A stretch of 64,000 nucleotides of DNA from Salvelinus alpinus (taxonomy: Eukaryota > Chordata > Actinopteri > Salmoniformes > Salmonidae): positions 73,632,027 to 73,696,026 of the forward strand of contig NC_092091.1 of the NCBI RefSeq assembly GCF_045679555.1, given 5' to 3'. This document shows positions 2,640 to 64,000 of the stretch, piece by piece. The translations under genes and the position numbers were made by a program. The notes beneath the pieces were generated by a model that was not told where the DNA came from, ran no database searches, and was given only the letters and a program-made list of their open reading frames with translations. Numbering within the stretch: position 1 is the first letter of the stretch; every line of letters begins with the position of its first letter.

Positions 2640-2742
2640 TTATTGTTAAAATATTTTCTGCAGCACAATATAAATCATTCCATGTCTCTACATGGTCATC
2701 TTGTCCAGAGTATATCTCAACACAGTCCTCCTGTCCAGGGAA
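2640..2742 (-). pseudogene. Relic of a C-type lectin terminal exon (copy B)
   Basis: Positions 2674-2742 are close to identical to the middle of the last lectin exon of copies A and C, the stretch encoding the EIYYGQ and DPVKTWND region on the minus strand. The 3' part of that exon has an internal deletion, leaving only TTATTGTTA near 2640. No open frame survives. Together with 3471-3830 it marks a third, destroyed lectin copy. Confidence 0.75.
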
Positions 2743-10163: not shown

Positions 10164-10353
10164 ATAAAGGCTAATTCTAATTGCTGCCTTAAAATATACT
10201 GTGGTACTTTATGTATCTACACACAGTACAACAGACAGTATATTATGTTTTATATCCTGTTAAACAGCTGCTTTAGTTTAACAGTCTGTTGTGTCTGAGA
10301 ACGTACGGTGTTACATGTGTAGGGAGGACTTCACACCTTAACCAGTGGTTTGA

Positions 10354-10965
10354 GCAGACAGCAACCTCCAGGAAGAGACACAACAGCAGATAGACACCAT
10401 GATGAGTGTGTGGATATGTAGCAGACAGCAACCTCCAGGAAGAGACACAACAGCAGATAGACACCATGATGAGTGTGTGGATATGTAGCAGACAGCAACC
10501 TCCAGGAAGAGACACATAGCAGATAGACACCATGATGAGTGTGTGGATATGTAGCAGACAGCAACCTCCAGGAAGAGACACAACAGCAGATAGACACCAT
10601 GATGAGTGTGTGGATATGTAGCAGACAGCAACCTCCAGGAAGAGACACAACAGCAGATAGACACCATGATGAGTGTGTGGATATGTAGCAGACAGCAACC
10701 TCCAGGAAGAGACACAACAGCAGATAGACACCATGATGAGTGTGTGGGTATGTAGCAGACAGCAACCTCCAGGAAGAGACACAACAGCAGATAGACACCA
10801 TGATGAGTGTGTGGGTATGTAGCAGACAGCAACCTCCAGGAAGAGACACAACAGCAGATAGACACCATGATGAGTGTGTGGGTATGTAGCAGACAGCAAC
10901 CCCCAGGAAGAGACACAACAGCAGATAGACACCATGATGAGCGTGTGGGTATTTAGCAGACAGGT
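10354..10965. repeat. 67-bp minisatellite, about 9 copies
   Basis: The unit starts GCAGACAGCAACCTCCAGGA and ends GTGTGTGGATATGTA. Successive starts are 10354, 10421 and 10488, a 67-bp period, and one unit carries a small deletion. Because 67 is not a multiple of three and the unit lacks minus-strand stops, three long overlapping open frames arise. I treat them as non-coding. Confidence 0.95.
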
Positions 10966-13731: not shown

Positions 13732-13984
13732 CTTAATTTAACACACTTGTGATCAAATACTGTAACTTCTACTTCTTTCTCTAATATACGTCTGTACCAG
13801 TGTCTCACTGCACTGTCCTGTGTCTGTTTGATTTATGGTAGTGGAACTCTGTCAGTCAACCACAGTGGATGAGAAACAGTGGTCAACACGTGACTTTCAC
13901 TAGCCTTAGTTTCTAATCTAAATATGTTTGTTTCCCACAGTGCTCATCAGTTTTAAACATACAATTAAACTGAAGTGATAATAT

Positions 13985-16606
13985 AATACATGATAAGCCT
14001 CCCACCAGCATTAGTTTGATAATATAATAAATGATATGACTCCCACCAGTCTTAGTTTGATAATATAATACATGATATGACTCCCACCAGTCTTAGTTTG
14101 ATAATATAATACATGATATGACTCCCACCAGCCTTAGTTTGATAATATAATACATGATATGACTCCCACCAGTCTTAGTTTGATAATATAATACATATGA
14201 CTCCCACCAGCCTTAGTTTGATAATATAATAAATGATATGACTCCCACCAGCCTTAGTTTGATAATATAATAAATGATATGACTCCCACCAGCCTTAGTT
14301 TGATAATATAATAAATGATATGACTCCCACCAGCCTTAGTTTGATAATATAATAAATGATATGACTCCCACCACCCTTAGTTTGATAATATAATACATGA
14401 TATGACTCCCACCAGTCTTAGTTTGATAATATAATAAATTATATGACTCCCACCAGTCTTAGTTTGACAATATAATACATATGACTCCCACCAGCCTTAG
14501 TTTGATAATATAATAAATGATATGACTCTCACCAGCCTTAGTTTGATAATATAATAAATGATATGACTCCCACCAGCCTTAGTTTGATAATATAATAAAT
14601 GATATGACTCCCACCAGCCTTAGTTTGATAATATAATAAATGATATGACTCCCACCAGCCTTAGTTTGATAATATAATACATGATATGACTCCCACCAGC
14701 CTTAGTTTGATAATATAATACATGATATGACTCCCACCAGCCTTAGTTTGATAATATAATAAATGATATGACTCCCACCAGCCTTAGTTTGATAATATAA
14801 TAAATGATATGACTCCCACCAGCCTTAGTTTGATAATATAATAAATGATATGACTCCCACCAGCCTTAGTTTGATAATATAATACATGATATGACTCCCA
14901 CCAGCCTTAGTTTGATAATATAATACATGATATGACTCCCACCAGCCTTAGTTTGATAATATACTACATTATGTGACTCCCACCAGTTTTAGTTTGATAA
15001 TATGGTACATGATATGACTCCAACCAGTCTTAGTTTGATAATGCAATACATGATATGACTCCCACCAGCCTTAGTTTGATAATATAATACATGATATGAC
15101 TCCCACCAGCCTTAGTTTGATAATATAATACATGATATGACTCCCACCAGCCTTAGTTTGATAATATACTACATTATGTGACTCCCACCAGTTTTAGTTT
15201 GATAATATGGTACATGATATGACTCCCACCAGCCTTAGTTTGATAATATAATAAATGATATGACTCCCACCAGCCTTAGTTTGATAATATAATACATGAT
15301 ATGACTCCCACCAGCCTTAGTTTGATAATATAATACATGATATGACTCCCACCAGTCTTAGTTTGATAATATAATACATGATATGACTCCCACCAGCCTT
15401 AGTTTGATAATATAATAAATGATATGACTCCCACCAGCCTTAGTTTGATAATATAATACATGATATGACTCCCACCAGCCTTAGTTTGATAATATAATAA
15501 ATGATGAGACTCCCACCAGCCTTAGTTTGATAATATACTACATTATGTGACTCCCACCAGTTTTAGTTTGATAATATGGTACATGATATGACTCCAACCA
15601 GTCTTAGTTTGATAATGCAATACATGATATGACTCCCACCAGCCTCAGTTTGATAATATAATAAATGATATGACTCCCACCAGCCTTAGTTTGATAATAT
15701 AATAAATGATATGACTCCCACCAGCCTTAGTTTGATAATATAATAAATTATATGACTCCCACCAGCCTTAGTTTGATAATATAATAAATGATATGACTCC
15801 CACCAGCCTTAGTTTGATAATATAATACATGATATGACTCCCACCAGTCTTAGTTTGATAATATAATAAATGATATGACTCCCACCAGTCTTAGTTTGAT
15901 AATATAATACATATGACCCCCACCAGCCTTAGTTTGATAATATAATAAATGATATGACTCCCACCAGCCTTAGTTTGATAATATAATAAATGATATGACT
16001 CCCACCAGCCTTAGTTTGATAATATAATACATGATATGACTCCCACCAGCCTTAGTTTGATAATATAATACATGATATGACTCCCACCAGCCTTAGTTTG
16101 ATAATATACTACATTATGTGACTCCCACCAGTTTTAGTTTGATAATATGGTACATGATATGACTCCAACCAGTCTTAGTTTGATAATGCAATACATGATA
16201 TGACTCCCACCAGTCTTAGTTTGATAATATAATACATGATATGACTCCCACCAGTCTGAGTTTGATATTATAAGACATGATATGACTCCCACCAGTCTGA
16301 GTTTGATAATATAATACATGATATGACTCCCACCAGTCTGAGTTTGATAATATAATACATGATATGACTCCCACCAGTCTTAGTTTGATATAATATATGT
16401 TTTGACTCCCATCAGTCTTAATGTGATAAAATAATACATGATATGACTCCCACCAGTCTTAATGTGATAATATAAGACATGATATGACTCCCACCAGTCT
16501 GAGTTTGATAATATAATACATGATGACTCCCGCCAGTCTTAATGTGATAATATAATACATGATATGACTCCCACCAGTCTTAGTGTGATAATATAATACA
16601 TGATAT
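13985..16606. repeat. 41-bp minisatellite, more than 60 copies (first block)
   Basis: The unit is about 41 bp, starting CTCCCACCAGCCTTAGTTTG and continuing ATAATATAATAAATGATATGA. Variants (TACATT ATGTG, GGTACATG, AATGCAATACATG) recur in the same order several times, showing higher-order duplication. It lies directly 5' of CTL copy C. The LTR element at 16607-19505 splits it from a four-unit tail (19506-19665). Confidence 0.97.
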
Positions 16607-19505: not shown

Positions 19506-19676
19506 GATATGACTCCCACCAGTCTTAGTTTGATAATATAATACATGATATGACTCCCACCAGTCTTAGTTTGATAATATAATACATGATATGACTCCCA
19601 CCAGTCTTAGTTTGATAATATAATACATGATATGACTCCCACCAGTCTTAGTTTGATAATATAACACATTATATAC
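19506..19676. repeat. 41-bp minisatellite, second block
   Basis: Four further units identical in type to 13985-16606, resuming at the GATAT target-site duplicate on the far side of the LTR element. Confidence 0.95.
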
Positions 19677-28180: not shown

Positions 28181-29349
28181 ATGGAAATCAATAACATACA
28201 CAAAAAGAAGACAATCGTCTTTTCTGTTATATTTCTACTTGTTTTGATGGTAATCTTAGTTTTCATCTTCGGCATTCCCCATTCAAAGGTGAGATATTTT
28301 ACATTTTATTGAAATAAAATAAAGAAAAAATGATTACATATTAAATTGTCATTGTTTGCCCATACATTAGAACAGCGTTCCCAAACTTTAGTACAGTTTA
28401 CCATAAGTCTTATGAATGGAAACGTGTCTAAATAATGTCACTGTTACAGGATGGAGAAACTGGGAATGGAGGGATTCAAGATGGAGGGATTCAAGACGGA
28501 GGGATTCAAGACGGAGGGATTCAAGACGGAGGGATGCAAGAGATTCTACCTCTAGACATGGTCCGTTCTTCTGTTGATGACAAATATGATGGTTGCAGAG
28601 GTTTAATGTTACGGGTGGTTGAAAACATGTACCTCTACGATGAGTTAAACACTAATCCTCAATTCAATACATCCTGGAACATAGCAAAACCACACGCTAA
28701 ACAGCGTGGAGACAGTTTGAATACAGATCATTCCATTGCTATCTATTTGTACACAAAAAACAAACCAGGACCCAATTCCAAATCGATCTACCTGGACTTT
28801 AACAAAGCAGTTCAAGAGGGCAATTCTGCATATATGACAACATCATTCAAGTACCATGCATTGCATTTCTACCTGACTGATGCCATTCAGATTCTTAGAG
28901 AAAGACAAGAGACATGTAAGGAAACCTTTCACAGAACCAACCGGAAGTTTGATCTGAGTGTTCTCAACCACGAGATCCGTTTCGGCACCTTCGCCACAAG
29001 CTCTTTCAGATCCGACTTAACCAACTTTGGGAATGTGTCTTGCTTTGAGATCCACACTTGCTTTGGCGCTGAGCTAACTTCTTACTCAGCCTTTCCTGAA
29101 GAGAGGGAAGTTTTAATTCCACCATATGAGATTTTTGAAGTCACCAAAATCCAGACAAAGTCACCAGTGAATAACCTGTTGTGTGAAGTCATCTACACAC
29201 TAAAGAGCAAGGGAGTAGACAGTGATCTGAATTGCAAATTGATTTTGAGTGGAGGAGAATCAAACATCATCAGAGCATCAGATACAGGCTACATAATACT
29301 CTATATTATGTTGATAACTACTGTATATTACCCCAGCTTCACACTGTAG
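28181..29349 (+). CDS. Ecto-ADP-ribosyltransferase, probable arginine-specific, membrane-associated
   Basis: Two coding exons (28181-28288 and 28450-29349, phase 0, GT-AG) give 335 residues. The N-terminus MEINNIHKKK is followed by a hydrophobic stretch (residues about 11-31), a signal peptide or signal anchor. Next come five tandem pentapeptides GGIQD/GGMQE and then the ART domain. Motifs are IPLDMV-like LPLDMVRSSVDD, FNKAVQEG, the catalytic Arg in EIRFGTFATSS (R-S part) and EEREVLIPPYEIF (ExE, with Glu as expected for arginine specificity). The C-terminus is hydrophobic (GYIILYIMLITTVYY), fitting a GPI-attachment signal. It would transfer ADP-ribose from NAD+ to arginines of extracellular proteins. 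An upstream non-coding exon is possible because AG precedes the ATG. Confidence 0.88.
28466..28548 (+). repeat. 15-bp tandem repeat inside the ART coding exon
   Basis: Five copies of a GATGGAGGGATTCAA-type unit encode GGIQD repeats between the membrane segment and the catalytic domain. In-frame unit number could vary between alleles. Confidence 0.9.
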
Positions 29350-32136: not shown

Positions 32137-32342
32137 TTGAGTGCTGTAACTCCCCCTTGTGGTGGTCTGGAGCAATGAAGCCGTGACGCTGGGTACCTCT
32201 AAGTCCAGCGACGTAAGCTCACAACTTTTAAAGGAGGAACCACTGTATGTGACTTAGTCATAAGTCTGGGCGTACAGATAACAGCTGTTTGGGTGGGACC
32301 TCAGTACGTGACATCCTGTTCTCATAATCTACAGGAATTTAG

Positions 32343-32465
32343 ATGGGTGGAAACATGCAAGAAGGAACAGACAATGGTGGCAACGTCAGCTATCTTAATC
32401 TGAACAGACAAGCTAAATCAGCTTTTACACACCATGTTCCGTCCCTGTTTCCAACCATCTGCTAA
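32343..32465 (+). CDS. Short ORF with an ITIM-like motif (left arm copy)
   Basis: A 40-residue frame begins MGGNMQEGTDNGGN and contains VSYLNL, which fits the ITIM consensus (I/V/L/S)xYxx(L/V/I). It resembles a cytoplasmic first exon of an immune receptor, but I see no clear donor site. An identical minus-strand copy is at 63672-63794. It may be a relic exon or chance. Confidence 0.25.
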   Translation: MGGNMQEGTDNGGNVSYLNLNRQAKSAFTHHVPSLFPTIC

Positions 32466-32491
32466 ACTGTCACAAAGACAAAATAGGTTGT

Positions 32492-32858
32492 TGTCACAGG
32501 TGTAGAGAGGAGTAGGCAGGAGGCAGTTGCAGTTTTAAAACTACTGAATATTTTATTAAAGCACCATAGCTTAAAGCGGGACAAAACCCACAGTGCAAAA
32601 TGTAAAGTACTCATGAAAGAGTAAAAGAGATTCCTTTCAGGAAAACCAATAACATTTACAATGACTGACAAAGACAAATGACAGAGGAAGTATATATACA
32701 GTGATAGAGTGGGGATTGGAACCAGGTGTGTGTAATGATGACGAGACAGAGAGTGAAGGGCATTTGACAGCAGCAGGTTCGGCAGAAGCTGGAAGGCCGG
32801 CAACACCTAAAGCCTGAGCTGGACTTGAGGGGGGGGCAAAGTGAAGGCCGGTGTGACA
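32492..32858 (-). mobile_element. Solo LTR in the left arm
   Basis: Minus-strand ends are TGTCACACCGGCC and CTACACCTGTGACA, with flanks GTTGT and ATTGT (4 of 5 match). The right-arm partner (63293-63644) lacks about 15 bp present here. Confidence 0.75.
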
Positions 32859-33889
32859 ATTGTACTTTTTCTATAAGAGGAGAGAGACAACTCTGTTTTG
32901 TTTGGTTGTTAATGATTGCTTCATTTTTGCAAATCTTATAGTAAAGTTGTTGTTAGAGGAATCTACAGTCTCTCTTCCTATATAATTGCTACGTGGCACG
33001 TGCAAAGTTACATGTTGGTAAATAAATGACATTTATCTTATCTTTATTAGGTTATTTGTGTGTTGTGGTTTACACCAAACTCACCCTGATCACTGTCTGT
33101 CTCACGCCTTCAAGAGGGCATCAAACTTGTTAGCAGGGGGTTTCTGAGGGGGGAAAGATCACAAAAGATACATGTTAGGGACAGTTAGAAATTTACCTGG
33201 GGGTAGGGGTATGTTATTTCCCTGATGTATATTTGCCATTTGCAGGTTTTACTATAAAATGTATTCTACTGTATATAACCACATGGCCTCATCTGCTGGC
33301 ATGCACTTCTGCTATCAAGTTGCTTGGTACTTGTCTAATGCACTATGCTTTTCCGCACGCTTACTATACCACAGGTCAATATAGTCTACCAGTCAACTGT
33401 CTATCCTGCCCTCTTTCCACTATTCATAGTGACAATAGTGGTAGGTGGATCATTTTCCAGATCTGCAATAGGCTAATTAGCAATCATACCACACATAAAA
33501 GCATTCAAAGCTGTGTCAATGTTTAATATAAATCCACATCAACAAATAGGAATTGCTGATAGGCACCGGAGAGGCCAGGTGCATCATTGTGCATGAAAGA
33601 ACAGTGAAGACATGAGACACAGCTCAAAAAGCTCCTCTGTTGATATTGCTTAGGGACAATACAGTTATCCTGCCTAGACTAGCCTACAACACCAAAAACC
33701 AATGAAAAATTGCATTATATTTCATAATGTCATAATAAGCCCTGTTATTTGATTGTTTCTACAGTATATAGTGTGGCCTCATAGGCCTATGATCCCAGCA
33801 GGCCCAGTTATTCACATAAACTCAACACACCTGCTGCCTGCTGATCTGAGCGGCTATTCCTCAACATAGAACCTGAAGCATAAATATAG

Positions 33890-34351
33890 TGTCACGGTTG
33901 CTTCGTCTGAAGAGGAGGAGTAGGGATCGGACCAAAACGCAGCGTTGTATGAAGACATAATGAATTTATTAAACAAGACGAACACTGACACGAAATACAC
34001 TTGAATAACTACAAAACAACGTAGACAGACCTGAACATGAGAACGTACAATATAACACGAAGAACGCATGAACAGGAACAGACTAACCAAACGAACGAAA
34101 ACGAAACAGTCCCGTGTGGTGCGACAGACACAGACACAGGAACAATCACCCACGAACAAACAGTGAGAACAGCCTACCTTAATATGGTTCTCAATCAGAG
34201 GAAACGTCAAACACCTGCCCCTAATTGAGAACAATATCAGGCAACACATTTAACGCCACATAGAAACACATAACATAGACTACCCACCCAGCTCACGTCC
34301 TGACCAACTAAACAAAGTTAAACAAAGGAAAATAAGGTCAGGAACGTGACA
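33890..34351 (-). mobile_element. Solo LTR with TATAG target duplication
   Basis: 462 bp, TGTCACGTTCC...ACCGTGACA on the minus strand, flanked by TATAG (33885-33889 and 34352-34356). In the right arm the same LTR is interrupted by a TTAA-type repeat. Confidence 0.88.
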
Positions 34352-34546
34352 TATAGCCTAAATACCTGTCATTTAACTTTTAAAATGTGTGAATTAACAT
34401 AACAGGTCACAATGTTTTAATCTGATTAGGCTACTTTAAAAGTCTCCTGTAGGCTTCCTGCACACGTTCATCCACTCCCCTCTAATGTAATTCCAGCATC
34501 CAAACTGGACACCGGCCAGTCCATTACACCAAAACATTTAACTTCT

Positions 34547-35340
34547 TATGGCTGGGTGCAGTATTGAGTAGCTTGGATGAATAAGGTGCCCAGAGTAAAC
34601 TGCCTGCTACTCAGTCCCAGAAGCTAAGATTTGCATATTATTCGTATTTTTGGATAGAAAACACTCTGAAGTTTCTAAAACTGTTTGAATGATGTCTGTG
34701 AGTATAACAGAACTCATATGGCAGGCAAAAACCTGAGAAAAAACGAAACCAGGAAGTGGGAAATCAGAGGTTTGTAGGTTTGCCTATCCAATATACAGTG
34801 TCTTTGGGGTCCCATTGCACTTCCCAAGGCTTCCACAAGATGTCAACAGTCTTTAGAACCTTGTTTGATGCTTCTACTGTGAAGAATGAGGGAAGGAGAG
34901 CTCTTTGAGTCAGGTTTCTGGCATGAGCTGATCACGCGCGGTCCCGTGAGAGCGACCTGCATTCCATCGCATTTCTGAAGACAAAGGAATTCTCCGGTTG
35001 AAACATTATTGAAGATTTATGTTAAAAACATCCTAAAGATTGATTCTATACATCATTTGACATGTTTCTACGAACTGTAATGGAATTTTTTGATGTTTCG
35101 TCTGACCTGCTCGTCATCATTTTGGATTTTGGAACTAAACTCGCAAACAAAAAGGAGATATTTGGACATAAATTATGGACGTTATTGAACAAAACAAACA
35201 TTTATTGTGGAACTGGGATTCCTGGGAGAGCATTTTGATGAAGATCATCAAAGGTAAGTGAATATTTCTAATACTATTTCTGACTTCTGTTGACTCCTTC
35301 TTTCAGTTGTAATGATCCTGTTAAAAACTGTTTAAAAACT
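34547..35340. repeat. TTAA-type repeat (left arm copy)
   Basis: Preceded by TTAA (34541-34544 region) and opening CTTCTTATGGCTGGG, it includes GATGAAGATCATCAAAGG near 35237. It is related to 51519-53390 and mirrored at 60160-61012. No coding capacity. The right boundary is uncertain. Confidence 0.6.
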
Positions 35341-35595
35341 GTTTAACCCACATTGCTTGCCCAGATTAAGATCAAGATTGTACTTCCGGTAATTTGTTGA
35401 AATTTAATCGAATAGTAATTTGTGATATGTTGTCGTTTGTTAGCATGTGCACTGTGTTTGTTAACATTCCCCATTATGTTACTGATTCCCTCCATCAATA
35501 TTGTGTTTATATTCACCATTAAGTTACTGATTCCCTCCATCAATATTGTGTTTATATTCACCATTAAGTTACTGATTCCCTCCACCAATATTGTG

Positions 35596-35695
35596 NNNNN
35601 NNNNNNNNNNNNNNNNNNNNNNNNNNNNNNNNNNNNNNNNNNNNNNNNNNNNNNNNNNNNNNNNNNNNNNNNNNNNNNNNNNNNNNNNNNNNNNN
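35596..35695. other. Assembly gap of 100 N
   Basis: A fixed-size run of 100 N, so the true distance is unknown. It follows the minisatellite at the end of the left arm and precedes gypsy integrase sequence. Confidence 1.
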
Positions 35696-35938
35696 CCCGT
35701 TCGTCTTCCCCCCCCCCCCCCCGTCCTTGTCGAGGGCGCTCCTATTTACAAGGTACGGAAGATCATGGACATGCGTTCTCGGGGACGTGGTCACCAGTAC
35801 TTAGTGGATTGGGAGGGTTACGGTCCTGAGGAGAGGAGTTGGGTTCCATCTCGGGACGTGCTGGACCGTTCGTTGATTGATGATTTCCTTCGTTGCCGCC
35901 AGGGTTCCTCCTCGAGTGCGCCAGGAGGCGCTCGGTGA
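35696..35938 (+). pseudogene. Gypsy integrase chromodomain, 5' end lost in the gap
   Basis: The frame reads [20 protein letters not shown], then [20 protein letters not shown] and a stop at 35936-35938. The aromatic cage-type YLVDWEGY and W-V-P pattern are those of gypsy integrase C-terminal chromodomains. The frame is open as far as it is visible. The rest of the element is in or beyond the gap. Confidence 0.88.
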
Positions 35939-35950
35939 GTGGGGGGGTAC

Positions 35951-36506
35951 TGTCATGTTTTGTCTTTGATCATCATGTCTTGTCCCTGTGCTTCCCTCTG
36001 CTGGTCTTATTAGGTTCTTTCCCTCTTTCTCTCTCTCTCTCTCCTCCTCCCTCTCTCCCTCTCCCGCTCTCTCTCTCTATCGTTCCGTTCCTGCTCCCAG
36101 CTGTTTCTCATTCTCCTAACGACCTCATTTACTCTTTCACACCTGTCCCCTATTTTGCCCTCTGATTAGAGTCCCTATTTCCCCCTCTGTTTTCCGCTTC
36201 TGTCCTTGTCGGATTCTTGTTTGATGTTTGCTGTCCTGTGTCCTTGTTCCGCCCTGTCGTGTTTTTGCCTTCTTCAGATGCTGCGTGTGAGCAGGTGTCT
36301 ATGTCAGCTACGGCCTGTGCCTTCCTGAAGCGACCTGCAGTCTGTGGTCGCGTCTCCAGTCGTTCCTCTCTACTGACGAGAGGATTTCAGTTTCCTGTTT
36401 TGGATTTACCTTTGATATATCCAGGAGAATCATTGTTTGTTTGATACTGGAATAAAGACTCTGTTTCTATTACGTCGCTTTTGGGTCCTCATTCATCAGC
36501 ATAACA
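35951..36506 (+). mobile_element. 3' LTR of the gypsy element
   Basis: It begins TGTCATGTTTTGTC right after a G-rich polypurine tract (GTGGGGGGGTAC). It ends ATCAGCATAACA, 556 bp, with a CT-rich stretch inside and an AATAAA signal at about 36451. Confidence 0.85.
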
Positions 36507-36620
36507 ATTAATTTCTATTTGGCACAAAATAATCTGAAACACAACCAAAACTAAAAGCAAATTCATCCAACAAGTTTGTAGTTTCACAAGCTAGATTTAG
36601 TCATAGCGTGCTACGAAATA

Positions 36621-36882
36621 TGGGACCAAATACTAAAAACTTTGACTACTTTAATACACATATAAGTGAATTTGTCCTAATACTTTTGGTCCCCTACAAT
36701 GGTGGACGATGTACAAACAGTGATGTCATTTCTAAACGGTTCACTCGATATGGATGAAAAAACTCGAAACTGAAAGCTGTTGGTCCTCACTTTAACCTTT
36801 AATGTATAATTTCAAATACAAAAGTGCTGGAGCCAATGCAACAAAAAATGTGTCAGTGTCCCAAAACTTGGAGCTTACTCAA
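36621..36882. mobile_element. Short non-autonomous DNA element, copy 1
   Basis: Contains CTAATACTTTTGGTCCCC and TCACTCGATATGGATGAA, matching in opposite orientation the element at 51237-51480. No coding capacity. Confidence 0.6.
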
Positions 36883-36907
36883 TGCAGTGTATCTTTCTCA
36901 ACCATAG

Positions 36908-39406
36908 GAGTTTCTCTTCAACTTCAAGAAGAGAGTCTGGATTGGTCTGACTGACAGAGAGACAGAGGAGACCTGGAAATGGGTGGATGGAACACCACTG
37001 ACCACAGAGTAAGAGATGTTAACTACTCTGACAATAAGGCTCCAATGAAAATGTTTCTATACAGGTTATTGTCATTGATTGTAGCAGTCAACAAAGATAT
37101 CTTTAATTATGTATATTAACATGTATATTATTTAGGATTGTAATGTTCTAACTGTGATATCTCACGGTTATTAACCCTGTAGGTACTGGTATTAACCATG
37201 AAGTCTGACTGTTTTTAACCCTGTAGGTACTGGTATTAACCATGATATCTGACTGTTTTTAACCCTGTAGGTACTGGTATTAACCATGATTTCTGCCTGT
37301 TTTTAACCCTGTAGGTACTGATATTAACCATGATTTCTGACTGTTTTTAACCCTGTAGGTACTGGTATTAACCATGATATCTGACTGTTTTAACCCTGTA
37401 GGTACTGGTATTAACCATGATATCTGACTGTTTTTAACCCTGTAGGTACTGGTATTAACCATGATATCTGACTGTTTTTAACCCTGTAGGTACTGGTATT
37501 AACCATGGTATCTGACTGTTGTTAATCCTGTAGGTACTGGTATTAACCATGATATCTGACTGTTTTTAACCCTGTAGGTACTGGTATTAACCATGAAGTC
37601 TGACTGTTTTTAACCCTGTAGGTACTGGTATTAACCATGATATCTGACTGTTTTTAACCCTGTAGGTACTGGTATTAACCATGATATCTGACTGTTTTTA
37701 ACCCTGTAGGTACTGGTATTAACCATGAAGTCTTACTGTTTTTAACCCTGTAGGTACTGGTATTAACCATGGTATCTGACTGTTGTTAATCCTGTAGGTA
37801 CTGGTATTAACCGTGATGTCTGACTGTTGTTAACCCTGTAGGTACTGGTATTAAATATGATATCTGACTGTTTTTAACCTTGTAGGTACTGGTATTAACC
37901 ATGATATCTGACTGTTTTTAACCCTGTAGGTACTGGTATTAACCATGATATCTGACTGTTATTAACTCTGTAGGCACTGGTATTAACCATGGTATCTGAC
38001 TGTTGTTAACCCTGTAGGTACTGGTATTAACCATGATATCTGACTGTTATTAACCCTGTAGGTATTGGCATAAACCATGATATCTGACTGTTGTTAACCC
38101 TGTAGGTACTGGTATTAACCATGATATCTGATTGTTATTAACCCTGTAGGTACTGGTATTTACCATGATATCTGACTGTTTTTAACCCTGTAGGTACTGG
38201 TATTAACCATGATATCTGACTGTTATTAACTCTGTAGGCACTGGTATTAACCATTATATCTGATTGTTATTAACCCTGTAGGTACTGGTATTAACCATGA
38301 TATCTGACTGTTATTAACCCTGTAGGTACTGGTATTTACCATGATATCTGACTGTTTTTAACCCTGTAGGTACTGGTATTAACCATGATATCTGACTGTT
38401 ATTACCTCTGTAGGCACTGGTATTAACCATTATATCTGATTGTTATTAACCCTGTAGGTACTGGTATTAACCATGATATCTGACTGTTATTAACCCTGTA
38501 GGTACTGGTATTAACCATGATATCTGACTGTTATTAACCCTGTAGGTACTGGTATTAAATATGATATCTGACTGTTGTTAACCCTGTAGGTACTGGTATT
38601 AACCATGATATCTGACTGTTATTAACCCTGTAGGTACTGGTATTAAATATGATATCTGACTGTTATTAACCCTGTAGGTACTGGTATTAACCATGATATC
38701 TGACTGTTATTAACCCTGTAGGTACTGGTATTAACCATGATATCTGATTGTTATTAACCCTGTAGGTAGTGGTATTTACCATGATATCTGACTGTTTTTA
38801 ACCCTGTAGGTACTGGTATTAACCATGATATCTGACTGTTATTAACCCTGTAGGTACTGGTATTAACCATGATATCTGATTGTTATTAACCCTGTAGGTA
38901 GTGGTATTTACCATGATATCTGACTGTTTTTAACCCTGTAGGTACTGGTATTAACCATGATATCTGACTGTTATTAACCCTGTAGGTACTGGTATTAACC
39001 ATGATATCTGATTGTTATTAACCCTGTAGGTAGTGGTATTTACCATGATATCTGACTGTTTTTAACCCTGTAGGTACTGGTATTAACCATGATATCTGAC
39101 TGTTATTAACTCTGTAGGCACTGGTATTAACCATGATATCTGATTGTTATTAACCCTGTAGGTACTGGTATTAACCATGATATCTGATTGTTATTAACCC
39201 TGTAGGTAGTGGTATTTACCATGATATCTGACTGTTTTTGACCCTGTAGGTACTGGTATGATCCACAGCCTGATAATGGTGGTGGCTATGCAGAACATGG
39301 TGAGGGGCACTATGCTGAAATTAACAAAGTTCATCTTCATCTGGAGGCATGGAACTACTTGTCATGTGACAAGAAAATCAACTGGACTTGTGAGAAAGTG
39401 ATTTAA
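36908..39406 (+). pseudogene. C-type lectin gene remnant: last two CRD exons (copy F)
   Basis: CRD exon 2 (36908-37008, 101 bp, the same length as in copies A and C) encodes EFLFNFKKRVWIGLTDRE and WKWVDGTPLTT. It is followed by a GTAAGA donor. The last exon (39250-39406) encodes YWYDPQPDNGGGYAEH through INWTCEKVI and a stop. The 2.2-kb intron is almost entirely a minisatellite. No CRD exon 1, neck or membrane exon is visible upstream; a short DNA element and gypsy 3' end lie there instead. The QPD triplet is kept but WND has become WNY, so the calcium site is probably weakened. I call it a pseudogene, though upstream exons could lie in the gap. Confidence 0.75.
37180..39249 (+). repeat. 44-bp minisatellite carrying a 3' splice site in each unit
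   Basis: About 47 units of GGTACTGGTATTAACCATGA + TATCTGACTG + TTTTTAACCCTGTA fill the last intron of copy F. Each unit has a CTGAC branch-point-like motif, a pyrimidine-rich tract, CTGTAG and the first codons of the last lectin exon (TACTGGTAT), then TAA. The final unit runs into the genuine exon at 39250. Confidence 0.95.
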
Positions 39407-39466
39407 CATCACCATAACAACATACTGTAACACATACAGCAGCTTATAGTGCACAGAACTTCCTCC

Positions 39467-39522
<56 letters not shown>

Positions 39523-39789
39523 AACCCACACACACCCTCATTTTAAACACACCTATTGTTGTATTTGTTTGTACTATCATATTAATAGAAGTCCTACTTT
39601 TTTCCTGTTTGTAACTTCCTGTGTTCCAGTAGTTATGTTTCACACATCATCAGATACAACATGAAGATAGGACATTTGACTTTGTGCATACAAATATTTC
39701 TCAATTCAAATATATTCTACAGATATTTACATGCTCCAATTTAGGCATGGTGCAAACATTCTCAACAGTAGCAAACTACCATTAAATAC
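39407..39789. other. 3' flank of CTL copy F with a CT microsatellite
   Basis: A (CT)n tract at about 39473-39520 lies in the presumed 3' untranslated region. Nothing else recognised. Confidence 0.7.
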
Positions 39790-40205
39790 TATCAGGAATC
39801 AAGGTAAGACCAGATGCAGACTGTCGAAGTAAAAATGTTTTTTTTATAGTAACAGGGGCAGGCAAAGACAGGTCAAGGCAGGCAGGGGTCAAATATCCAG
39901 AGTATGGGGGCAAAGGTATAGGATGGCAGGCATGCTCAGGGAAAGGTCAGGCAGAGTTTGGTAATCCAGAGGTGGGGCAAAGGTACAGGACGTCAGGCTG
40001 GTTCAGGGTCAGGACAGGCAGAGGTTGGTAATCCAGAGGTGGGGCAAAGGTACAGGACGGCAGGCTGGTTCAGGGTCAGGACAGGCAGAGGTTGGTAATC
40101 CAGAGGTGGGGCAAAGGTACAGGATGGCAGGCCTCAGGGTCAGGACAGGCAGAGGTTGGTAATCCAGAGGTGGCATGGAAGAGCACCAGTAAGCCAGTGA
40201 CTCAG
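39790..40205 (-). mobile_element. LTR fragment with internal tandem amplification
   Basis: The minus strand matches parts of the LTR at 30798-31176 (GCCTGCCCCTG, CAGTCTGCATCTGGTCTTAC). A segment of about 67 bp (AGGCAGAGGTTGGTAATCCA type) is repeated three to four times at 39950-40170. Confidence 0.65.
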
Positions 40206-40221
40206 CCCCTGTAATAGGGTT

Positions 40222-40567
40222 TGTCACGAACGTCGTCAGGGAAATGACCGGACCAAGGTGCAGCGTCGTGAGCGTACATTTCTTTTTATTTAGAATGTCG
40301 CCAACAAAAACAAGAAATAACAAAAATGAATGTGAAGCTTACTAGGGCTATACAGGCCACTAACAAAGTCAACTACCCACAAAATACAAAAGGAAAAAAG
40401 GCTGCCTAAGTATGATTCCCAATCAGAGACAACAATAGACAGCTGTCCCTGATTGAGAACCATACCCGGCCAAAACATAGAAACACAAAACATAGAAATC
40501 AGAACATAGAATGCCCACCCAAATCACACCCTGACCAAACCAAATAGAGACAAAAAAAGGTCTCTAA
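40222..40567 (-). mobile_element. LTR fragment abutting the previous one
   Basis: The plus strand starts TGTCACGAACGTCGTCAGG and contains CCCAATCAGAGACAACAATA, shared with the LTR at 16607-17079. Its far end is missing (replaced at about 40567 by LINE 3' sequence), so it is truncated. Confidence 0.65.
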
Positions 40568-44660
<4,093 letters not shown>

Positions 44661-54309: not shown

Positions 54310-56349
54310 TCACTGACTAACAGACAGCTTAACTGCTGTGTTTTCCAATACAGCTTTACAATTCAGATTGCTCTGGAGCCCTACACTCTCCAGTTTGAAG
54401 AGAGATTTACATTTAAGAATATTCTGGCCTTTTTCCTTTTTGGTAATTTTGAACATCTCAAAAGGTGGAATCAATACCTCCTTCTCCTGTTCTCCTAACA
54501 CTGGGTAGGACTTGAGATAAGCTCCTGCACATGTCTTTATCTCAAAGCAGGAGTCATTTCCAAATTTTGGAGTAATTTCCTTGTCAAGAGAGCTGGAGGC
54601 AAAGAAGCCAAATCGGATTATTTGGTTAACTTCACCTGCAAACACCATGCTGGTTCTTCGATATGTAGTGTGACAGCCATGTTGGTTTTCTTTCAGGAGG
54701 CGGAGAGCATCTATCAGCAGGAAATGCAGGGAGTGGAACTGGAAGGAGGACCCGTAGTCTGTCCTATTGGTACGGACTGCCTGGTTGAACTCCCTATATA
54801 TGTCATTCGAAACTTCTGTGTAAACACAGATAGCCTGGATATGCTCTCCACTAAGTTTGTCTTTAAGATTGACCTCTGAATTGTCCTTTTTGAATCGTTC
54901 CTTCACATTTTTTTCACATTCTTCTGCCTTCTTCCAGGCTCGTTTGAAGATCCCTACTGTTTTGGTTTCTATTGAAAGAAATTTCTTCTGCACTGTGTTG
55001 TACATTTGTTCAGTGCAGCCGTTATACATGTCGTCAACAGAGTTAGGGACCATGTCTAAGGGTATGGGGGAATTGAGACCAGGCTGACGGAGATGAACCT
55101 TAGAGAATATGGTACAAAAAAACATGCAAACAGTGTAAAAACAGAGGGAAAGTTTTATATTTGAACATTTTTAATTGTAGCGATCTTGTTCTCAGATTAA
55201 TAATAGCATAACTAAATGTTGGTAAAAACCTTTCATAATTACAAGGTTCTCATCTCAAAATCGTATAGTTCTGTAGAACAAACAGAAGTTGATGCTGGAT
55301 AGTGGGCAATGCTGAAAAAGCATTTGTGTTACAGATAGAAAGATCATCTTACCATCTTGGAGTCCACACCCAGAGTCCAATCATAGAAAACACACAGCAC
55401 AGCAAAGGTTAGGATGCTGTCTATCCTCATGACTTTAACAGCACCTGTAGTAAAACAACATGTATAGGAGACCATACCAATCAGCATAACAATACCAAAC
55501 ATGATACAACATATCTTTGATATTATTCACGCTTTAAAACTAATTATGTTACTGTGTACTACTCCCTTCACAGAACAGAGAAAACTGTCTCTAACCAGGA
55601 TAGAAAGAGGTGTGTGATGCCATGGTGCACAACTGAGCAAGAGGACAAGTACATTAGTGTGTCTAGTTTGAGAACCAGACGCCTCACAAGTCCTCAACTG
55701 GAAACTTCATTAAATAGTACCCGCAAAACCCCAGTCTCAACGTCAACAGTGAAGAGGTGACCCCGGTACGCTGGCCTTCTAGGCAGAGATGCAAAGAAAA
55801 AGCCATATCTCAGACTGGCTAATAAAAGTAAAAGATTGAGATGGTCAAAATTGACAGAGATATGGCTTTTTCTATGAAATATTACATAATATTTTGCGTT
55901 AATCTTTTATTTAAAAAAAAGACAATTAAATAAATTTTATTCCCACTTTGTAACGCAACTAAATGTGGAAAAAGTAAAAGCATGTGAATACCTTCCGAAG
56001 GCACTGTAGCTAGCTGAGACAACCACCTATCACAGTCAAATATACTGGATACAAACATTCCATTCCAGCTTAACAATGGATGTGGAACATTTAGCAATTT
56101 CTTTTTGAAGCATAGCTACATTAGCTACAACAACCTAGTAGTATTTAATTAATACTACTGATAAATTCTATAGAGAAATAACTACATCAGCTACAACAAC
56201 CTAGTAGTATTTAATTAGTACTACTGATATAAACTCTATAGAGAAATAATGAGTAGTACTATTGACAAATCTATATCTGATGCTACTGTTTTTGTAACAT
56301 CTTATAAGATTATAATGATCTGATAGTTCAACTTACCAGACAGGAACAT
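54310..56349 (-). CDS. Ecto-ADP-ribosyltransferase, probable secreted arginine-specific form
   Basis: Three coding exons on the minus strand: 56349-56337 (only 13 nt of coding), 55444-55353 and 55098-54310. They total 894 nt, or 297 residues, in frame with GT-AG introns. The start MFLSGAVKVMRIDSILTF leads into a signal peptide (about residues 10-30). The ART domain shows IPLDMVPNSVDDMY, FNQAVRTNR, the catalytic Arg in IIRFGFFASSSL and EQEKEVLIPPFEMF (ExE with E-K-E), the pattern of arginine-specific mono-ADP-ribosyltransferases using NAD+. The C-terminus (TAVKLSVSQ) is polar, so no GPI signal is visible and the enzyme is probably secreted. Intron 1 contains a Tc1 transposase fragment. A TATA-like box lies about 65 bp upstream of the start. 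Confidence 0.9.
55596..55850 (+). pseudogene. Tc1 transposase N-terminal fragment in ART intron 1
   Basis: The plus strand reads CTTEQEDKYISVSSLRTRRL and STRKTPVSTSTVKR, then a stop (TGA near 55758). The same frame continues YAGLLGRDAKKKPYLRLANK and KRLRWSK, the helix-turn-helix DNA-binding part of Tc1-type transposases. It is degenerate and has no DDE core. Confidence 0.85.
56105..56245. repeat. Short tandem duplication in ART intron 1
   Basis: Two copies of about 65 bp (CATCAGCTACAACAACCTAG, TAGTATTTAATTA, CTATAGAGAAATAA). Confidence 0.75.
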
Positions 56350-59459: not shown

Positions 59460-60090
59460 CAGTAACATCAGTAACATAATGGTGAAAATGAACACAATAT
59501 TGATGGGGTGGAGGGAACTGGCATTATAATGGTGAATTTAAACACAATATTGATGGGGTGGAGGGAATCAGTAACATATTGGTGAATTTGAATACAATAT
59601 TGATGGGGTGGAGGGATTCAGTAACATAATGGTGAAAACACAATATTGATGGAGTGGAGGGAAGCTGTAAGAAAATAGTGAATATAAACACAATATTGAT
59701 GGAGGGAATCAGTAACTTAATGGTGAATATAAACACAATATTGATGGAGGGAATAAGTAACTTAATGGTGAATATAAACACAATATTGATGGAGGGAATA
59801 AGTAACTTAATGGTGAATATTAACACAATATTGATGGAGGGAATCAGTAACTTAATGGTGGATATAAACACAATATTGATGGAGGGAATCAGTAACTTAA
59901 TGGTGAATATAAACACAATATTGATGGAGGGAATCAGTAACTTAATGGTGAATATAAACACAATATTGGTGGAGGGAATCAGTAACTTAATGGTGAATAT
60001 AAACACAATATTGATGGAGGGAATCAGTAACTTTATGGTGAATATAAACACAATATTGATGGAGGGAATCAGTAACACAATGGGGAATGT
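59460..60090. repeat. 45-bp minisatellite, about 14 copies
   Basis: The unit is about 45 bp: AATCAGTAACTTAATGGTGA then ATATAAACACAATATTGATG and GAGGG. The stop-free 202- and 155-residue frames are repeat artefacts (45 is a multiple of three). The left arm of the inverted duplication stops in the same array at the N gap. Confidence 0.95.
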
Positions 60091-60159
60091 TAACAAACAC
60101 AGTGCACATGCTAACAAATGACAACATATCACAAATTACTATTCGATTAAATTTCAACA

Positions 60160-61012
60160 AATTACCGGAAGTACAATCTTGATCTTAATCTGGGCAAGCA
60201 ATGTGGGTTAAACAGTTTTTAAACAGTTTTTAACAGGATCATTACAACTGAAAGAAGGAGTCAACAGAAGTCAGAAATAGTATTAGAAATATTCACTTAC
60301 CTTTGATGATCTTCATCAAAATGCTCTCCCAGGAATCCCAGTTCCACAATAAATGTTTGTTTTGTTCAATAACGTCCATAATTTATGTCCAAATACCTCC
60401 TTTTTGTTTGCGAGTTTAGTTCCAAAATCCAAAATGATGACGAGCAGGTCAGACGAAACGTCAAAAAATTCCATTACAGTTCGTAGAAACATGTCAAACG
60501 ATGTATAGAATCAATCTTTAGGATGTTTTTAACATAAATCTTCAATAATGTTTCAACCGGAGAATTCCTTTGTCTTCAGAAATGCGATGGAATGCAGGTC
60601 GCTCTCACGGGACCGCGCGTGATCAACTCATGCCAGAAACCTGACTCAAAGAGCTCTCCTTCCCTCATTCTTCACAGTAGAAGCATCAAACAAGGTTCTA
60701 AAGACTGTTGACATCTTGTGGAAGCCTTGGGAAGTTCAATGGGACCCCAAAGACACTGTATATTGGATAGGCAAACCTACAAACCTCTGATTTCCCACTT
60801 CCTGGTTTCGTTTTTTCTCAGGTTTTTGCCTGCCATATGAGTTCTGTTATACTCACAGACATCATTCAAACAGTTTTAGAAACTTCAGAGTGTTTTCTAT
60901 CCAAAGATACTAATAATATGCAAATCTTAGCTTCTGGGACTGAGTAGCAGGCAGTTTACTCTGGGCACCTTATTCATCCAAGCTACTCAATACTGCCCCC
61001 AGCCATAAGAAG
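60160..61012. repeat. TTAA-type repeat (right arm copy)
   Basis: Mirror of 34547-35340, with TTTGATGATCTTCATCAAAA near 60302 and the end CCAGCCATAAGAAGTTAA at about 61013. No coding capacity. Confidence 0.6.
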
Positions 61013-61202
61013 TTAAATGTTTTGGTGTAATGGAATGGCCGGTGTCCAGTTTGGATGCTGGAATTACATTAGAGGGGAGTGGATGAACGTGTGCAGGAAG
61101 CCTACAGGAGACTTTTAACGTAGCCTAATCATATTAAAACATTGTGCCCTGTTTTGTTAATTCACACATTTTAAAAGTTAAATTACAGGTATTTAGGCTA
61201 TA

Positions 61203-62266
61203 TGTCACGTTCCTGACCTTATTTTCCTTTGTTTAACTTTGTTTAGTTGGTCAGGACGTGAGCTGGGTGGGTAGTCTATGTTATGTGTTTCTATGTGGGG
61301 TTAAATGTGTTGCCTGATATGGTTCTCAATTAGGGGCAGGTGTTTGACGTTTCCTCTGATTGAGAACCATATTAACCTGATGAGGACAGAGGGCGCTGTT
61401 TTCACTTCGGGGGAAAATCGTGCCCAATTTAAACGGCCTCGTACTCAATTCTTGCTCGTACAATATGCATATTATTATTACTATTGGATAGAAAACACTC
61501 TCTAGTTTCTAAAACCGTTTGAATTTTGTCTATGGGTAAAACAGAACTCATTTGGCAGCACACTTTCTGACCAGGAAGTGGAAAGTCTGAAATCGATGTT
61601 CTGTTCAAGGACCTGCCTATAAATGGGCATGATCCGTTTGACTATACGTGCACGTCATACACCTTCCCCTAGATGTCAAGAGGAAGTGAGAGATGAAATG
61701 AGTTCATTATCTCGGTCTGAGATGGAAAGAAACCTCTTGGAACGACGTGTCCTCCAATTTCTGTTTTCTGCAAGGAGCATGGAGGGACCTGTTATTGCCT
61801 TCTGAAAAACTGTCGTTATAGGCGAATACTATCTCCGGCTTTGATTTAATTTGATACATGTCACAATATCATCGTAAGGTATGTTTTTTCAATATAGTTT
61901 TATTAGATTATTGAATTTTTTTCGGGACGTTAGGCGTGTTGCTTTGTCTGCATATGTTCAGGAAGGATAGCTTCGCGCCACTTGGCCAGTGTGCTTGCTA
62001 ATTCAAGAGGGAAAAAGAACGTTCTAATACCAAACAAAGACGGTTCTGGACAAAGGACCCCTTGTACAACATTCTGATGGAAGACCACCAAAAGTAGGAA
62101 CCATTTTGTGATGCTATTACATATATCTGTCGAACTGTGTACTAGTAGCTTTGCGCTCAGGTTTTGGGCATTCCCTTACCATAACTAAGTCTTATGTCGT
62201 AATGAAGATATTTTTAGAATTCTAACACTGCGATTGCGAACGAAGAGGAGGAAAGCAACCGTGACA
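61203..62266 (+). mobile_element. Solo LTR interrupted by a TTAA-type repeat
   Basis: LTR ends TGTCACGTTCC (61203) and ACCGTGACA (62266), with CTATA at both flanks (61198-61202 and 62267-62271). Between 61376 and about 62240 lies an inverted, truncated copy of the 5.5-7.6 kb element, opening CCTGATGAGGACAGAGGGCG after TTAA. Roughly 260 bp of LTR present in the left-arm partner is missing here. Confidence 0.8.
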
Positions 62267-63292
62267 CTATATTTATGCTTCAGGTTCTAGGTTGAGGAAT
62301 AGCCGCTCAGATCAGCAGGCAGAAGGTGTGTTGAGCTTATGTGAATAACTGGGCCTGCTGGGATCATAGGCCTATGAGGCCACACTATATAGAAACAATC
62401 AAATAACAGGGCTTATTATGACATTATGAAATATAATGCAATTTTTCATTGGTTTTTGGTGTTGTAGGCTAGTCTAGGCAGGATAACTGTATTGTCCCTA
62501 AGCAATATCAACAGAGGAGCTTTTTGAGCTGTGTCTCATGTCTTCACTGTTCTTTCATGCACAATGGTGCACCTGGCCTCTCCGGTGCCTATCAGCAATT
62601 CCTATTTGTTGATGTGGATTTATATTAAACATTGACACAGCTTTGAATGCTTTTATGTGTGGTATGATTGCTAATTAGCCTATTGCAGATCTGGAAAATG
62701 ATCCACCTACCACTATTGTCACTATGAATAGTGGAAAGAGGGCAGGATAGACAGTTGACTGGTAGACTATATTGACCTGTGGTATAGTAAGCGTGCGGAA
62801 AAGCATAGTGCATTAGACAAGTACCAAGCAACTTGATAGCAGAAGTGCATGCCAGCAGATGAGGCCATGTGGTTATATACAGTAGAATACATTTTATAGT
62901 AAAACCTGCAAATGGCAAATATAAATCAGGGAAATAACATACCCCTACCCCCAGGTAAATTTCTAACTGTCCCTAACATGTATCTTTTGTGATCTTTCCC
63001 CCCTCAGAAACCCCCTGCTAACAAGTTTGATGCCCTCTTGAAGGTGTGAGACAGACAGTCATCAGGGTGAGTTTGGTGTAAACCACAACACACAAATAAC
63101 CTAACAAAGATAAGATAAATGTCATTTATTTACCAACATGTAACTTTGCACGTGCCACGTAGCAATTATATAGGAAGAGAGACTGTAGATTCCTCTAACA
63201 ACAACTTTACTATAAGATTTGCAAAAATGAAGCAATCATTAACAACCAAACAAAACAGAGTTGTCTCTCTCCTCTTATAGAAAAAGTACAAT

Positions 63293-63644
63293 TGTCACAC
63301 CGGCCTTCACTTTGCCCCCCCCCTCAAGTCCAGCTCAGGCTTTAGGTGTTGCCGGCCTTCCAGCTTCTGCCGAACCTGCTGCTGTCAAATGCCCTTCACT
63401 CTCTGTCTCGTCATCATTACACACACCTGGTTCCAATCCCCACTCTATCACTGTATATATACTTCCTCTGTCATTTGTCTTTGTCAGTCATTGTAAATGT
63501 TATTGGTTTTCCTGAAAGGAATCTCTTCTACACTTTCATGAGTACTTTACATTTTGCACTGTGGGTTTTGTCCCGCTTCAATAAAATATTCAGTAGTTTT
63601 AAAACTGCAACTGCCTCCTGCCTACTCCTCTCTACACCTGTGAC
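63293..63644 (+). mobile_element. Solo LTR in the right arm
   Basis: Partner of 32492-32858 (TGTCACACCGGCC to CACCTGTGACA), 352 bp, and 15 bp shorter. Confidence 0.75.
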
Positions 63645-63671
63645 AACAACCTATTTTGTCTTTGTGACAGT

Positions 63672-63794
63672 TTAGCAGATGGTTGGAAACAGGGACGGAA
63701 CATGGTGTGTAAAAGCTGATTTAGCTTGTCTGTTCAGATTAAGATAGCTGACGTTGCCACCATTGTCTGTTCCTTCTTGCATGTTTCCACCCAT
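63672..63794 (-). CDS. Short ORF with an ITIM-like motif (right arm copy)
   Basis: Identical in reading to the 40-residue frame at 32343-32465 (VSYLNL motif). Same reservations. Confidence 0.25.
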   Translation of the reverse strand: MGGNMQEGTDNGGNVSYLNLNRQAKSAFTHHVPSLFPTIC

Positions 63795-64000
63795 CTAAAT
63801 TCCTGTAGATTATGAGAACAGGATGTCACGTACTGAGGTCCCACCCAAACAGCTGTTATCTGTACGCCCAGACTTATGACTAAGTCACATACAGTGGTTC
63901 CTCCTTTAAAAGTTGTGAGCTTACGTCGCTGGACTTAGAGGTACCCAGCGTCACGGCTTCATTGCTCCAGACCACCACAAGGGGGAGTTACAGCACTCAA

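Follow-up and report, generated by a model that had tools for sequence, protein, structure and literature searches.

Does a minisatellite that repeats a 3' splice site dozens of times ahead of a lectin exon set how its host gene is spliced, or is it a passenger of tandem duplication? The question is raised by an array in the last intron of an apparent C-type lectin gene, located in the 64,000-nt stretch of DNA that was analysed (the window). The array is a natural test of spliceosome choice where one intron offers dozens of 3' splice sites that are nearly identical; given transcription of the gene, junction reads alone would reveal the winner among the 48 acceptors. The repeat class is known from amphioxus, where it was proposed as raw material for intron gain. 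The features needed below are the following, with exon junctions written as a slash.

36908..37008, plus strand: penultimate C-type lectin domain (CTLD) exon (exon A), EFLFNFKKRVWIGLTDRETEETWKWVDGTPLTT plus 2 nt of the next codon
37009..37014, plus strand: 5' splice site AGA/GTAAGA, intron side (PWM 5.7 by approximate weights, 95th percentile of window GTs)
37009..39249, plus strand: last intron (2241 nt), with 140 nt ahead of the array
37149..39259, plus strand: mirage-type minisatellite, 47 decoys and the authentic boundary (TRF, TGTAGG phasing, pattern search)
37149..37192, plus strand: first unit, with 4 differences from the consensus the most diverged, and with the lowest acceptor score of the 48
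38688..39083, plus strand: three perfect 132-bp (3-unit) higher-order copies, starting at 38688, 38820 and 38952
39216..39259, plus strand: last unit, containing the authentic acceptor (AG 39248-39249) and the 10 nt that open the last exon
39250..39406, plus strand: last C-type lectin exon, coding portion, with stop TAA at 39404-39406

Anatomy and copy number of the array

Phasing on TGTAGG resolved 48 head-to-tail copies of a 44-bp unit, and TRF delimited 37155-39259 as 47.9 copies with 93% matches. All 48 copies have the same layout: the final 34 nt of the intron, then the opening 10 nt of the last exon (consensus GTACTGGTAT). A single unit is 43 bp long and the others are 44 bp; the spacing from one TGTAGG to the next is 44 bp in 46 cases and 43 bp in one, and this evenness means that no TGTAGG-less unit was skipped. 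The last unit runs uninterrupted into the authentic exon, with the authentic junction between 39249 and 39250. TGTAG/G is present in 48/48 units and a branch-like YTNAY at the CTGAC position in 47/48, while the junction reads AG/GT in 44 units and AG/GC in four.

The first-pass annotation had reported about 47 decoy acceptors before a lectin exon, which agrees with the 47 decoys and one authentic acceptor counted here. Of the CTGAC and CTGTAG that it placed in each unit, the acceptor is present in all 48 as TGTAG/G, and one unit is without the branch-like motif. The unit does hold the first codons of the last exon, as was stated, but one G had been dropped: position 39250, the first of the exon, is a G, which gives CTGTAG/GTACTGGTAT at the junction.

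The units share a mean pairwise identity of 93% and fall into 23 types, 16 in the 5' half of the array and 10 in the 3' half. Among the 47 units scored for differences from the consensus, the first is the most diverged, and the last, with two differences, is not unusually diverged, so that edge divergence is confined to the 5' edge. Units 1 and 48 are both unique types, as are 12 of the 46 inner units. An exact self-match of 313 bp at a lag of 132 was detected within the array, and the perfect 132-bp copies suggest a recent change of length.

Allowing up to 3 mismatches, a 43-nt pattern of the unit matched 45 times in the window, always within the array, and 0 times in 100 shuffles, which rejects a chance origin. 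Unusual RNA structure was also rejected, three stretches giving unremarkable z values of -0.68, -1.40 and +1.61, and the region 35000-41000 had 0 Rfam matches at gathering score. No exact match to a 22-nt piece of the unit occurred in IMG/VR or in bacterial and archaeal genomes, a result of little weight because neither collection is meant for fish genomes.

The copy number might be wrong, or the array inflated by the assembler, and the region is a difficult one, with the perfect 132-bp copies, a nearby gap of 100 N and an inverted duplicate of 98-99% identity. Against this, the array is continuous with both flanks and no block longer than six units is repeated exactly among its 23 unit types, and we regard an assembly artefact as very unlikely.

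The apparent lectin gene and its surroundings

Two paralogous lectin genes are located on the minus strand of the window, at about 13.74-12.04 kb (paralog 1) and within 3.84-0.81 kb (paralog 2), and the latter stretch also contains an extra transmembrane match and a last-exon fragment. This last-CTLD-exon fragment (2653-2736, minus strand, 64% identical over 28 residues) is a possible pseudo-exon.

Exon A shares 75% identity with its counterpart in both paralogs over 32 residues, and joined to the last exon it matches Pfam Lectin_C (8.8e-10, 39.7 bits against a gathering score of 22.6). The last exon has no cysteine between YW and LSC and reads WNY, whereas both paralogs and the best PDB match have the cysteine and WND. 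A tblastn search with paralog exons as queries (E up to 5) recovered exon A (75% identity, E 6e-15) as well as the last exon (35% identity, E 2e-6). The cytoplasmic, transmembrane, neck and first CTLD exons of the paralogs, searched at the same E limit, gave no convincing plus-strand match in the window, and only the last two CTLD exons of the array gene were found in it. The best plus-strand candidate for an upstream exon, a neck match at 29077-29187 (E 0.003), lies inside an ADP-ribosyltransferase (ART) reading frame. Two ART reading frames share the window with the lectin genes, at 28432-29346 (plus strand) and 54313-55170 (minus strand), with Pfam ART matches of 7.6e-44 and 4.8e-49.

Upstream of exon A there are an assembly gap of nominally 100 N at 35596-35695 and a chromodomain fragment (Pfam Chromo), which we take to be part of a retroelement. 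A repeat at 36650-36869, 73% identical to 51492-51259, ends 38 bp before exon A. The array gene is probably a partial, perhaps decaying, lectin copy, because no upstream exon was recognised on the plus strand of the window, a gap and transposon pieces lie just upstream, and the conserved cysteine and WND are lost. The reading frames of the two exons are open, however, and their splice sites usable, so the gene may still be live, its upstream exons lying within the gap or beyond the window.

An inverted duplicate (32137-35595 and 59959-64000; two blocks, about 1.8 and 1.4 kb long, with 98.2% and 98.7% identity) abuts the same gap, as either a recent inverted duplication or an assembly fault. 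Both of its ends have a 45-bp minisatellite in opposite orientation, at 59467-60095 (13.6 copies) and at 35459-35595 before the gap (3.0 copies).

Predicted consequences of decoy use and strength of the acceptors

Conceptual splicing of exon A to each decoy led to a stop within six residues in 47/47 cases. The peptides before the stop are EYWY (35 decoys), EHWY (4), E (4), EYWYLP (2), EY (1) and EYWHKP (1), and retention of the intron gives a stop directly after E. The truncation that the first-pass annotation predicted is general, and the exact ending it gave, Y-W-Y and stop (after the junction codon E), holds for 35 of the 47 decoys. If the gene is transcribed, a truncated lectin domain through the use of any decoy is a plausible side effect.

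The splice scores were obtained with approximate vertebrate position weights, not MaxEntScan, and rank sites only roughly. The authentic site scores 8.5 on these weights. Decoy scores range from 5.3 to 9.7 around a median of 6.7, and three of the 47 equal or exceed the authentic one. Among 8153 AGs taken from both window strands, with the array's plus strand excluded, even the weakest decoy stands at about the 92nd percentile. By these approximate weights the decoys are in the range of real sites. The paralog acceptors of the equivalent intron score 10.8 and 9.4 on the same weights, above nearly all decoys.

These scores bear on the possibility that the array acts as a copy-number-dependent acceptor sink, capturing the donor at 37009 and reducing the yield of full-length lectin, so that its length would set the dose of truncated versus full lectin. 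The roughly ranked strength of the decoys, the truncation by every one of them and the recent length change implied by the perfect 132-bp copies are as such a sink would have them. However, the first unit, whose AG lies 174 nt into the intron and is the closest to the donor, scores below the other 47 by these approximate weights (not MaxEntScan), the gene looks partial with the conserved cysteine lost, and amphioxus repeats of the same kind are reported to occur without interference in regular splicing (PMC3087553, PMC3902484). The proposed tuning of splicing by copy number is weakened because only two CTLD exons were found in the window, behind transposon pieces and a gap, and because the cysteine and WND are lost; we consider the acceptor sink unlikely.

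A stop codon in the final exon escapes EJC-dependent NMD, so the decoy mRNAs might be stable. A further reading would make the 47 decoys a length-dependent off-switch, more copies giving less full-length lectin and a truncated mRNA with no exon junction after its stop being the default, and this we find quite improbable.

Recursive (ratchet) splicing would make each AG/GT an acceptor and then a donor, remove the intron stepwise and erase the decoys. AG/GT is the form of a ratchet point and occurs in 44 of the 48 units, and the unit's own TAG/GTACTG is at the 84th percentile of GTs by the approximate weights. However, splicing of exon A to a decoy reconstitutes AGA/GTACTG, which scores -0.7 on these weights, at about the 47th percentile of GTs. 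Re-splicing is unlikely because this donor is poor, and recursive splicing was rejected as having no usable reconstituted donor; we give it hardly any weight.

The unit alignment was also considered for selection on the decoys. Variable columns make up 23 of the 44, and no AG is lost in the 47 decoys, but random placement of the variable columns leaves both AG columns invariant with P 0.22, and selection keeping AG was rejected on this ground. The invariance of the six-column TGTAGG block has P 0.007, with the block picked after seeing the data, and any invariant run of 6 or more columns has P 0.20. These column statistics do not soundly indicate either the presence or the absence of selection on the decoys.

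Relation to known mirage minisatellites

Mirage minisatellites have been described in amphioxus for Adh3 and the globins BflGb6 and BflGb9 (PMC3087553), and a TnC mirage and, in PGBD5, similar but imperfect repeats were also reported from amphioxus (PMC3902484). According to the first report, their units span an intron/exon boundary, many with AG/GT signals; the Adh3 data and globin RT-PCR suggest that regular splicing is undisturbed, and the authors noted that the copies could serve as cryptic sites (PMC3087553). BflGb6 repeats the 3' intron end together with a 5' exon part, as the lectin array does, and the Adh3 units of 10-72 bp cover its 44 bp, whereas BflGb6 has 6 and 3 copies of 150-160 bp in two haplotypes, against 48 copies here (PMC3087553). 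The array also differs in lying in an apparent vertebrate lectin gene, the mirages being from amphioxus. It is most likely a large vertebrate example of this known class, an assignment that rests on three features of the array: a boundary-spanning unit, a splice signal in the unit and origin from the host gene.

A donor-type counterpart was studied in 1995, in a gene that we take to be IFI6/G1P3. That minisatellite is reported to supply many splice sites, as the lectin array does, but they are donors and not acceptors (PMC3618361). Rainbow trout irak3 has a small case of similar kind in intron 4, where the opening 15-17 nt of exon 5 occur four times directly ahead of that exon; irak3 yields many transcript variants, which the cited passages do not link to the repeat. 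The trout case differs in being another gene and in having four copies and not 48 (PMC6763605). Intron gain through AGGT tandem duplication (Rogers 1989, cited in PMC3087553; PMC4974935) resembles the lectin array in its tandem AG/GT and differs in that the array lies within an existing intron, with no new intron shown. The literature matches listed contained no vertebrate acceptor array of comparable size beyond the works named, which is no proof of absence.

Origin of the unit and the lectin paralogs

The last introns of the two paralogs, at the equivalent position, are 327 and 306 nt long and contain no array, compared with 2241 nt in the array gene. The intron part of the unit can be aligned with the acceptor of paralog 1 (ACCATGATATCTGACTGT versus ACCAGAGTGTCTGACTGT). 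Its score against the last 60 nt of the paralog-1 intron was equalled by 3 of 2000 mononucleotide shuffles and 2 of 2059 window 60-mers (sampled from the plus strand of 1-35000); for paralog 2 the corresponding figures were 52 of 2000 and 70 of 2059. An unrestricted scan with the whole unit ranked paralog 1 first and paralog 2 fifth of 2053 windows, and with the intron part alone the paralog acceptors ranked 15th and 20th of 2053; because of these lower ranks, homology to the paralogs rests on position and the shuffle test.

Position and paralog similarity together support in-place amplification of the gene's own intron/exon boundary, since two paralogs have short last introns without an array and one of them has a significantly similar acceptor. 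The tandem amplification put forward in the first-pass annotation is upheld by the layout common to all 48 units, by the array-free paralogs and by the paralog-1 acceptor.

We consider it probable that the array is a neutral mirage minisatellite, arisen by such amplification in a lectin gene that is partial or decaying. Tandem duplication, in one or more rounds, would have copied the last-exon boundary (34 nt of intron and 10 nt of exon) in place, and unequal exchange or slippage would then have expanded the array to 48 copies. The three perfect 132-bp copies point to recent three-unit duplications near its 3' end. The array is most likely selectively neutral because the gene is probably a partial or decaying copy. 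If the gene is transcribed, the spliceosome would meet 47 similar acceptors before the real one, and the use of a decoy would truncate the lectin and turn the remaining array into 3' UTR.

Two further tandem arrays were observed in the window. A 41-bp minisatellite of 64.5 copies (13976-16606) lies directly upstream of the 13.7-12.0 kb paralog, and another 4.1 copies are at 19506-19674. A 67-bp array at 10353-10963 is open on the minus strand in all three frames (204, 223 and 247 aa from stop to stop).
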